64,000 nucleotides of DNA from Lachnospiraceae bacterium (lineage in GTDB: Bacteria; Bacillota; Clostridia; Lachnospirales; Lachnospiraceae): assembly GCA_022799355.1 (NCBI GenBank), contig JAAWOG010000005.1, forward strand, positions 1 to 64,000. The letters are read 5' to 3'. The position numbers were made by a program, and so were the translations under genes. The number at the start of each line of letters is the position of its first letter. Position 1 is the first letter of the stretch. The notes under the pieces are model-generated. The model was given only the letters and a program-made list of their open reading frames with translations. It did not search any database and was not told the origin of the DNA. Below, one piece after another: positions 9,945 through 38,985 of this stretch.

Positions 9945-11561
9945 ATGAAAAAAATGAATTCTTCGGCAATCGATCTGTTTAAACATAAGATGCTGCTGGC
10001 AGGGATGATAAATATTCTGATTTTGTCCGCCATGTTGGGAATACAGGGAGCCGGTTATCTGGGGATCTCTCTGGGCGTATTTGCATTTCTTGTTTCTTTT
10101 CATTCCTGTTGGCTTTCCGCTACGGTCACCAGATATGTCCGCGGCAGAAATGCCAGGAACCAGTACCGGAGCAGCAGAAAATTTTTCCGGGGGGCAGTGA
10201 TTTATGTTCTTTTCACAGGTATGGCCTTAAGTGCCGTATTTATTTTATTCGGCAATCAGCTTGGGACTTTTCTGATCCGGGATATTCATATCAGCATATG
10301 CATTATGATCATTCCGGGGTTATTGCTTGTATATGGCGTATCGGAAGTCATCAGCGGTTATCTGCAGGGAATGGGATTTTACATGCCGGTAAAGATATTT
10401 TATCTGGTACGGCGCGCAGCTACCTTTGTGGGAAGTATCGCAGGTATGAAATTTCTCAAAGAATACGGAGAGAAAGTGGCAAACCTGAAACATAACCAGG
10501 CGGTTACCAGTGTGTACGGCGCTTTCGGCACGATGCTAGGCATACTTGCCGCAGGTCTGGCGGGACTGCTTCTTCTGCTTATATTCTGTCTGCTGTTTCA
10601 CGGAGAGATGAGATATATGCGCGGCAAAGATAACGCCCGTTATCAGGAGAGCGCCATGCATGGTTTCCGGATCATGTTCCATCTGGGGCTTATGCAGGGC
10701 GTTCGGTTTGCCATGCTTTTTTCACCTCTCTTGCTGAACTATATTTTATATATCCGGCTTTGCAGAAAGGACGGGGACTCTGCGCCCTGGGTGAAAACAG
10801 GAGGCTTTTTGTTCGGAGAAGCGGTTCCTGTTATGGTTATTTTGATTCTGGGCTTTACCGTTTTAAATCATAAGAATATGCGGCAGCTTGCAGGGCACTG
10901 GAAAAATCAGGCGTTTTCACAATTCAGGGAAAAAGTGTTTGCCATGTTTCTCGGTATTTTTGTACTCTTTCTTCCGCTCTGCGGCGCTGTCACGGTGATG
11001 GCGGAACCGGTTTTAAAATGTCTGACGAAGGATGCCGGGAAGGAAGGAGCGGACATTTTATTGTATGCGGCAGCCGGAGCGGTTTTGCTGGTTCTGGAAA
11101 TAGTGACATATAAGCTGTTGGAGATCTGGAATGAAACGTTATCGTTGTATCTGATTTTGCTTGTCAGCTTTGTGGCGCAGACAGCGTTTGCGGTTGTCGC
11201 ATTTCAGGTGCTGGAAGCCGGTGTGACGGGAATTATGCTTGGCATGATGGTACAGGCACTATTGTTTATCGTGTTATTTTTTGTGAAATTTTCAAGACGA
11301 TTGAAACTGACAGGAAATCAGTTGAAAAAGCTGGTTATGGCAATGATCATGGCGTTTGCGGCGGTTCTCGTTATACTGCTGATTTACCAGATTGCAGGGA
11401 AAAAGCTTTCCGCCGGCGGGGCGATGGCGGTTTCCGTTATTCCGGGATTTTTATTGTATCTGGCAGCTATTGTGGCACTTCAGATTGTCAGTGACAAAGA
11501 AGCCGGTTATATGCCGGGAGGAGGATTATTCTTACGGATAAACAGAATGTTGGGAAGATAA
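9945..11561 (+). CDS. Multi-TM polysaccharide flippase-like (SpoVB/MATE-like) protein
   Basis: About 12-14 predicted hydrophobic helices; VSEVISGYLQGMGFYMPVKIFYLVRRAA pattern. Confidence 0.55.
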   Translation: MKKMNSSAIDLFKHKMLLAGMINILILSAMLGIQGAGYLGISLGVFAFLVSFHSCWLSATVTRYVRGRNARNQYRSSRKFFRGAVIYVLFTGMALSAVFILFGNQLGTFLIRDIHISICIMIIPGLLLVYGVSEVISGYLQGMGFYMPVKIFYLVRRAATFVGSIAGMKFLKEYGEKVANLKHNQAVTSVYGAFGTMLGILAAGLAGLLLLLIFCLLFHGEMRYMRGKDNARYQESAMHGFRIMFHLGLMQGVRFAMLFSPLLLNYILYIRLCRKDGDSAPWVKTGGFLFGEAVPVMVILILGFTVLNHKNMRQLAGHWKNQAFSQFREKVFAMFLGIFVLFLPLCGAVTVMAEPVLKCLTKDAGKEGADILLYAAAGAVLLVLEIVTYKLLEIWNETLSLYLILLVSFVAQTAFAVVAFQVLEAGVTGIMLGMMVQALLFIVLFFVKFSRRLKLTGNQLKKLVMAMIMAFAAVLVILLIYQIAGKKLSAGGAMAVSVIPGFLLYLAAIVALQIVSDKEAGYMPGGGLFLRINRMLGR

Positions 11562-36875: not shown

Positions 36876-37009
36876 AGCGGCCGTATTTCAGACGGCGATA
36901 CAGGGAGAAGGCGACGGCATTGCAGACACAGGCAAAACGGCCTTCGTCAGTGAACCGGAGTGATAAAGCAATATGCGGAAGCACAAAACACTGGGAGGGC
37001 ACAATAGAT

Positions 37010-37588
37010 ATGCCAGAAAAAACAAGAGAATCTGATAAAACAAAATATCTGGAAACCGAGCGTCTGATTCTGCGGCACTGGAAAGAATCGGATGCGGAAA
37101 GTTTATACGAATATGCCAAAAGCCCCAATGTGGGACCGGTGGCCGGCTGGCCGGCGCATTCCGGCGTGGAGGAAAGCCTGGAAATCATAAGGACCGTTTT
37201 TGCGGCAGAGGAGACCTACGCGGTCTGCCTGAAAGAGGATAACAGGGCGATAGGATGCGCCGCGATCACAACAGGAGCCGAAAGTAATTTGAAACTGCCG
37301 GAAACGGAAGGGGAGATCGGCTACTGGATCGGGGTGCCCTTCTGGGGACAGGGACTGATACCGGAAGCCGTGAAAGAACTGATACGCCGCGGGTTTGAGG
37401 AACTGAATCTGCAAAAACTCTGGTGCGGATATTTTGAAGGAAATACAAAGTCCAAGCGGGTACAGGAAAAATGCGGATTTATTTACCATCATACCAATAA
37501 GGATATGCACTGGAAACTGATGGATGATATCAGGACGGAACATGTGACCTGCCTGACAAGGGAAGAATGGGAGAAGAAATTCATTTAG
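37010..37588 (+). CDS. GNAT family N-acetyltransferase
   Basis: LETERLILRHWKESDAESLYEYAKSPNVGPVAGW; GEIGYWIGVPFWGQGLIPEAVKELI; NTKSKRVQEKCGF. Confidence 0.92.
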   Translation: MPEKTRESDKTKYLETERLILRHWKESDAESLYEYAKSPNVGPVAGWPAHSGVEESLEIIRTVFAAEETYAVCLKEDNRAIGCAAITTGAESNLKLPETEGEIGYWIGVPFWGQGLIPEAVKELIRRGFEELNLQKLWCGYFEGNTKSKRVQEKCGFIYHHTNKDMHWKLMDDIRTEHVTCLTREEWEKKFI

Positions 37589-37663: not shown

Positions 37664-37692
37664 TTGACAGGATCATTTGGTTATCCTATGAT
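37664..37692 (+). promoter_or_regulatory. Strong sigma-A-like promoter TTGACA-N17-TATGAT
   Basis: TTGACA 37664-37669, 17-nt spacer, TATGAT 37687-37692. Confidence 0.75.
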
Positions 37693-37720
37693 GATATATA
37701 GATCATCTATATATCATCAT
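37688..37720. promoter_or_regulatory. Perfect 33-bp palindrome (16-bp arms, 1-nt centre), candidate repressor operator
   Basis: ATGATGATATATAGAT-C-ATCTATATATCATCAT. Confidence 0.8.
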
Positions 37721-37734
37721 CAAGGAGGAATACC

Positions 37735-38985
37735 ATGAAAAAGAAGCCTGTTTTACTTATTGTCACAATACTTGCAGCAGCCGGTGTTTTTTTATTTTTG
37801 TTTCTGTCCGGTGTTTTTTTCATGCCGGTCACAGGGCGGGTATCGGATAAAGCTTATCGGGAAGAACGGAAATCCTTTTACAGACGCGAGGAATACGGTG
37901 TATGGGAAAGAGGGACTCTCCTTGAATTGCCGGCACAGGATATCAATATGGGACTCGATATACGAAGCTATGATATCTCCGCGCTTGACCTGACGGATCA
38001 GGAGGCTGTCTTATCCGGGGTGACTTATGATTCGGCTACCGTTTTTCCGGACAGGCTTCCGAACGGGTTTGATCCGGAGCGGATTATGGAAATCGGAAAA
38101 AATCCGGGGCTTGGCATCCGGACACTGCACGAGAAGGGAATTACCGGAAAGGGCATCAGCATTGCCATCGTAGATCAGGCGCTGAACCCGGACCATACGG
38201 AATATGCGGATCAGTTGATAAGCTACGAACTGCTTCACTGCTGTGACACTGCCGCGCAGATGCACGGCAGCGCCGTAACCAGCATTGCCGTCGGAAAAAA
38301 CTGCGGTGTGGCGCCGGACGCTAAAGTCTATTATATTGCCTCTACCTTTGGCAGATACGGATCGAACGGTATGAAAATGAACCTGCAATATATGGCGGAT
38401 GGTATCGACAGGATTCTGGAAATCAATACACTGCTGCCGGAAGATCGCAAAATACGCGTCATCTCCATCTCGAGGGGATTTACATCCGAAAAGGGGGCGG
38501 ATGCGGTCCGACAGGCTATTGAACGGGCAAAGGAAGCGGGCGTGTTTGTGATTACCACCACGCCGGAAGATCACTATGGCTTTACCCTGATGGGGCTGGG
38601 GAAGGAACTCACTGCGGATCCCGATGATATGGCGTCCTACGGACCGGGACATTTCTGGAGTGACTATTTTTACAACGGTGAGACCGCCGATACCGCCCAT
38701 ATGCTGCTTGTGCCGATGGATGCCAGAACTTATGCATCCTGGAACAGCACGGACGGCTATGAGTTTGCCGCATCCGGGGGACTGAGCTGGTCGGTTCCCT
38801 GGATGGCAGGATTGTTTGCGCTATGTCTGCAGGTGGATGAGGATCTGACGCCGGAATATTTTCTCCGGAAAGCTTTTGAAACCGGAACGGTAAAAACCGT
38901 GGAATATCAGGGCGGGACCTACGAACTTGGGACAATCATAAATCCGCCGGCTCTGATAGAAGCGCTGAGTCAGCAAAAGAACTGA
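37735..38985 (+). CDS. S8 (subtilisin-like) serine peptidase, membrane-anchored or secreted
   Basis: N-term TM; GKGISIAIVDQALNPDHTEY (Asp), MHGSAVTSIAVGKNCGVAPDAKVYY (His), GGLSWSVPWMAGLFAL (Ser). Confidence 0.85.
   Translation: MKKKPVLLIVTILAAAGVFLFLFLSGVFFMPVTGRVSDKAYREERKSFYRREEYGVWERGTLLELPAQDINMGLDIRSYDISALDLTDQEAVLSGVTYDSATVFPDRLPNGFDPERIMEIGKNPGLGIRTLHEKGITGKGISIAIVDQALNPDHTEYADQLISYELLHCCDTAAQMHGSAVTSIAVGKNCGVAPDAKVYYIASTFGRYGSNGMKMNLQYMADGIDRILEINTLLPEDRKIRVISISRGFTSEKGADAVRQAIERAKEAGVFVITTTPEDHYGFTLMGLGKELTADPDDMASYGPGHFWSDYFYNGETADTAHMLLVPMDARTYASWNSTDGYEFAASGGLSWSVPWMAGLFALCLQVDEDLTPEYFLRKAFETGTVKTVEYQGGTYELGTIINPPALIEALSQQKN

Follow-up and report, generated by a model that had tools for sequence, protein, structure and literature searches.

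The 33-bp perfect palindrome in the promoter of an S8 (subtilisin-like) protease gene is most probably the operator of an autoregulated PadR protein that is encoded in trans, on contig C85 of the same genome, and that would block RNA polymerase at this promoter. We put the probability of this reading at roughly 0.87, on the basis of sequence comparisons between the window (the whole 64-kb stretch of DNA that was analysed), the rest of its genome, and its relatives. It would give a PadR group found widely in the family and class a named regulator, together with its operator consensus and regulon. The original prediction had placed the controlling factor elsewhere in the genome, and the PadR gene on contig C85 bears this out.

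The palindrome in the S8 promoter

The S8 gene was predicted to be preceded by TTGACA-N17-TATGAT, an overlapping palindrome, and a ribosome-binding site, with its ATG at 37735, and each of these elements lies exactly where it was claimed to be (Table 1). The palindrome reads ATGATGATATATAGAT-C-ATCTATATATCATCAT, with 16-bp perfect arms around a one-base centre, and covers all but one of the six bases of the -10 box. Transcription of the S8 gene is predicted to start at 37699-37701. This is the arrangement of a dyad operator, a near-perfect inverted repeat overlapping promoter elements. It is the sole palindrome in the window with arms of at least 9 bp and a loop of 0-1 bases; by chance, ~2e-5 palindromes with arms of at least 16 bp are expected per window, a figure that rises to only ~4e-3 if the DNA is taken to be very AT-rich. 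The promoter itself we read as strong from its sequence. No regulator gene adjoins the S8 gene, as had been noted; its neighbours encode a methionine gamma-lyase and a GNAT acetyltransferase. A repressor very probably binds at the palindrome, whose functional unit, as judged from the sequences compared, is the 17-19-bp core TATATMGR-NNN-YCKATATA and not the whole 33 bp.

Table 1. Features of the S8 locus (positions in the window) and of the padR locus on contig C85 of the same genome (G000)
Feature	Position	Strand	Basis or remark
GNAT acetyltransferase, not a regulator	36920..37588	+	PF13302, E 1.9e-27
-35 hexamer TTGACA, S8 promoter	37664..37669	+	sequence
-10 hexamer TATGAT	37687..37692	+	sequence; 17-bp spacer after -35
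33-bp perfect palindrome (16-1-16), inferred PadR operator	37688..37720	strandless	centre 37704, ~+5 of predicted start
Operator core TATATAGATCATCTATATA	37695..37713	strandless	zero mismatches to family consensus TATATMGRNNNYCKATATA
Shine-Dalgarno AAGGAGGA	37722..37729	+	sequence
S8 (subtilisin-like) protease, 416 aa, N-terminal stretch read as membrane anchor	37735..38985	+	PF00082, E 9.3e-12
padR, 108 aa, first gene of padR - FtsW/RodA-like operon	G000:C85:10897-11220		PF03551, E 2.1e-23
Three padR-promoter operators	C85:10747-10763, 10767-10783, 10782-10798		motif scan
FtsW/RodA-like partner of PadR	L031:6310-7674 (G000:C85)		

Conservation at orthologous S8 genes

The S8 gene was found in six of the nine genomes of the genus set, which includes the window's own (69-100% identity), and went undetected in the other three, whose assemblies are 85-87% complete. 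In all six, the same GNAT acetyltransferase gene lies upstream of it as a syntenic neighbour. The promoters have a -35 hexamer of TTGACA or TTGACG with a 17-bp spacer, and a -10 hexamer of TATGAT, TAAGAT, or TATTAT at equal spacing. The sequence between -35 and -10 has diverged, while the core TATAT(A/C)G(A/G)-N3-(C/T)C(G/T)ATATA is kept in six of six. For example, in G004 a 27-bp palindrome is identical to that of the window save for its central base, and 16 of the 17 spacer bases differ. In G005 the palindrome is perfect over 37 bp and shares the window's core, and the promoters of G002, G006, and G007 carry two to three overlapping, partly degenerate tandem copies whose centres are spaced by 15 and 20 bp. 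A core that stays constant while its surroundings change is direct evidence that selection acts on this DNA site. Absence of the palindrome upstream of orthologues had been named as grounds for abandoning the operator reading; its conserved core before all six congeneric S8 genes supports that reading instead.

Motif scans and the PadR gene

The length of the query mattered for finding a regulator. A 27-bp palindrome core, at up to 3 mismatches, matched once in the window's genome and once in G004, before the orthologous S8 gene, and missed the regulator; the shortened, conserved 17-bp core ATATMGATNATCKATAT found the PadR gene. At up to 1 mismatch, this core had 25 sites in the nine genomes of the genus, against 0 for a reversed control pattern, and 21 of the 25 could be assigned by coordinates to S8 or padR promoters. 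We treated as off-target the sites on C11 and C62 of G004 (1 mismatch), in which an invariant position is broken, a 1-mismatch site on C12 of G008, which lies inside an ABC-transporter gene, and, provisionally, the site on C17 of G004, which has the same sequence. A refined 19-bp core, again at up to 1 mismatch, gave four sites in the window's genome, all in the S8 and padR promoters, with 3 for the reversed control. Besides the S8 promoter, the padR promoter is the only place where the motif recurs, and it does so in all nine congeners. When 100 genomes of the family were scanned for exact matches to the strict motif, five were positive (control 0), and every site was in a padR promoter except that at the window's S8 gene. 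Recurrence of the motif upstream of a GntR, PadR, or MarR gene had been proposed as a check, and the outcome is positive for PadR. The regulator class had been left broad (GntR/PadR/TetR-like); the operator type stands, and the motif at padR promoters narrows the class to PadR.

Relaxing the scan of the window's genome to 2 mismatches returned 10 sites against 3 for the control, and we dismissed the additional targets. Nearly all of those outside the S8 and padR promoters break near-invariant positions (e.g., G-3/C+3). One of the 2-mismatch sites, C46:92145, is a weak candidate target.

The C85 PadR is matched by PadR chains in the PDB with E-values down to 1e-15, and LmrR-type structures (3f8b, 3f8c, and others) align with it over nearly its full length. 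All nine congeners have an orthologue (65-100% identity) with operators upstream; close homologues occur in 54 of 299 sampled genomes of the family. Among 37 PadR loci drawn from the genus and the sampled family genomes, 35 carry a site with up to 2 mismatches within 250 bp upstream, and outside this stretch the best matches in the same loci have 3-6 mismatches. The two loci with no upstream site are L071, where the PadR frame is N-terminally extended, and L078, which is near a contig end. The centres of the sites at padR loci lie mostly at -20, 0, and +15 when counted from the start that a TTGACA-N17 promoter predicts, and spacings of 15 and 20 bp between centres characterise the operator arrays of most relatives. 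With three sites in its own promoter in the window's genome, the regulator has the arrangement of an autoregulated gene. Beyond the family, the site is present at all 16 PadR loci of at least 55% identity. At more distant orthologues (L092-L119; below ~53% identity), the operator drifts from TATATAGATNATCTATATA to TACATAGATNATCTATGTA, which offers a natural series for studying co-evolution of recognition helix and operator.

We hold with good confidence, from these sequence comparisons, that the trans-encoded C85 PadR is the controller of the S8 promoter. It is unlikely, although conceivable, that the operator is real and the S8 site is bound by a different regulator (a PadR paralogue, another winged-helix protein, or a GntR or TetR protein), with the padR promoter merely a shared target. 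PadR paralogues are encoded in most of these genomes, and the S8 promoters of the window, G004, and G005 have a lone long palindrome (13-18-bp arms), in contrast to the multi-site arrays at padR. However, the motif tracks the C85-type PadR clade through the family and class, and each genome with the S8 gene has a PadR of this type. Paralogous PadRs in the genus (~33% identity) have no site, the best matches in 3.2 kb having 4-5 mismatches, and most of them have the recognition helix VSESTLYPVLRRLQ, compared with LKAGTLYPLLHGME in the C85 type. Absence of the motif at paralogues with a differing helix is as expected if the C85-type PadR reads the motif.

The FtsW/RodA-like partner and the probable origin of the regulon

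The gene after padR encodes a protein of 455 aa that combines a permease prefix domain with an FtsW/RodA domain (PF01098, E 1.2e-13), and a homologue of it sits beside PadR at all 37 loci, two of them as partial matches. The DPxGxGYQ segment carries the SEDS catalytic aspartate. It is absent from the PadR-adjacent FtsW/RodA-like proteins across the family. The partner may therefore be a SEDS relative that has degenerated, and the family's PadR-linked proteins are possibly a pseudo-SEDS lineage. Several distant members of the class (e.g., L093, L096, and L112) retain a DPxGxGY-type segment. The proteins compared were those of L031, L038-L083, and L091-L118.

Outside the genus, S8 homologues (42-52% identity) were without the motif, which makes the S8 link genus-specific as far as sampled. 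The S8 protease thus seems to have joined an older regulon of padR and its FtsW-like partner by operator gain, in this genus only, and the locus would be a clean case of the recruitment of a gene into an existing regulon through operator gain. In distant genomes (L012, L121, and L125-L127), S8 homologues are tandem or multicopy and have no operator; the copies occupy two neighbouring stretches in L012 and four in G913.

Proposed mechanism and the direction of control

We propose that a PadR dimer on TATATAGAT-N-ATCTATATA would cover the -10/+1 region and keep the S8 promoter shut. PadR would also occupy the two to three operators of its own promoter, which would result in negative autoregulation of the padR operon. 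Its release, for which we presume either a signal related to the envelope or a small lipophilic ligand, would allow the membrane-anchored S8 protease to be made together with the FtsW/RodA-like membrane protein. Four parts of this model are inferred: that PadR physically binds, that it represses and does not activate, what releases it, and that the two products share a physiological role.

Control in the opposite direction, with bound PadR activating the S8 promoter, or a bound PadR that acts only as an elongation roadblock, appears improbable to us. The direction of control is not readable from sequence, and the site is centred downstream of the predicted start. Yet overlap with -10/+1 in a promoter with near-consensus -35 and -10 hexamers and 17-bp spacing is the classical geometry of repression, and characterised PadRs of this kind are repressors (LstR, LltR, LadR, and LmrR; PMC6624303, PMC4517056).

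Another reading is that the palindrome forms a hairpin in the leader RNA, which would act as an attenuator, a stability element, or a translational switch. A transcript of the full palindrome folds at -18.5 kcal/mol, right before the Shine-Dalgarno sequence. However, the left arm overlaps the -10 box, and RNA that begins at the predicted start is unable to form the hairpin, its best fold reaching only -2.0 kcal/mol. Related promoters carry the same sequence between -35 and -10, where it is never transcribed from that promoter. On position and folding, we rejected the hairpin as very improbable. As for a functionless palindrome arising by chance, short dyads do arise randomly in AT-rich promoters, but the very low expectation per window, the retention of the core in orthologues with diverged spacers, and the absence of control sites at 1 mismatch in the genus scan refute this reading and leave it a negligible probability.

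Returning to repression by PadR, a more specific and tentative suggestion, which we consider rather doubtful, is a two-target envelope-stress switch. In such a switch, one PadR would co-induce a catalytically degenerate SEDS protein and a surface subtilase that act on the same process, with the subtilase cleaving, for example, an antimicrobial peptide or an envelope protein, and the protease would have been captured through its operator, in this genus only, into an ancient padR-SEDS regulon. The link between a non-canonical FtsW/RodA-like protein and a membrane-anchored protease is testable, and the operator is defined sharply enough to serve directly in screens for binding and for inducers.

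Comparison with known systems

The nearest described system is LstR/Lmo0421 of Listeria. LstR of L. monocytogenes is an autoregulated PadR-type repressor encoded in the sigC-lstR-lmo0421 operon, Lmo0421 is a non-canonical homologue of FtsW and RodA that has the activity of neither, and derepression was measured at ~140-fold (PMC6624303). Both systems pair a PadR gene, within one operon, with a gene for a non-canonical FtsW/RodA homologue. The Listeria operon has an ECF sigma factor (sigC), whereas none was seen in the padR operon here when the list of open reading frames was read by eye. The S8 protease is an additional target here, and none is seen for LstR in the portion of PMC6624303 available; the operator sequence of LstR was likewise not found in that portion. 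The C85 PadR scores 47.6 bits, far below the cut-off of 112 bits for the PRK09416 PadR.

LmrR, LadR, and PadR of lactic acid bacteria and Listeria have the canonical operator ATGT-N8-ACAT (PMC4517056, PMC3506622). What they have in common with the C85 system is small PadR proteins with inverted repeats in their own and their target promoters. However, the consensus here is ATATMGATNATCKATAT, which is not the canonical PadR motif. It forms an odd dyad, ATAT(A/C)GAT-N-ATC(G/T)ATAT, whose outer words are opposite to those of ATGT...ACAT and which drifts to ACATAGAT-N-ATCTATGT in distant orthologues. The targets differ as well, being a SEDS-like protein and a protease here and a drug pump for LmrR-type PadRs. 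Position and symmetry are shared with classical dyad operators that overlap -10/+1, but most relatives have arrays with 15- and 20-bp spacings, and three species have a single palindrome of 27-37 bp. We found no relevant paper linking the motif text to PadR in the literature outside subscription, and no description of the C85-type PadR group in the literature searched.

The S8 protease and the surrounding genes

Alignment to subtilases and to the orthologues places the Asp-His-Ser triad of the S8 protease at D147/H177/S351, and we read the N-terminal hydrophobic stretch as a membrane anchor. At residues 275-281, near the usual position of the oxyanion hole, the window's protease has TTPEDHYG where five congeneric orthologues have EDNYG, a change of a conserved Asn to His. 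Elsewhere in the window, between mutL and miaA, genes for a nucleotidyltransferase (PF01909; 35143-35502) and a HEPN protein (PF05168; 35489-35899) form a pair that resembles an MNT-HEPN toxin-antitoxin module.
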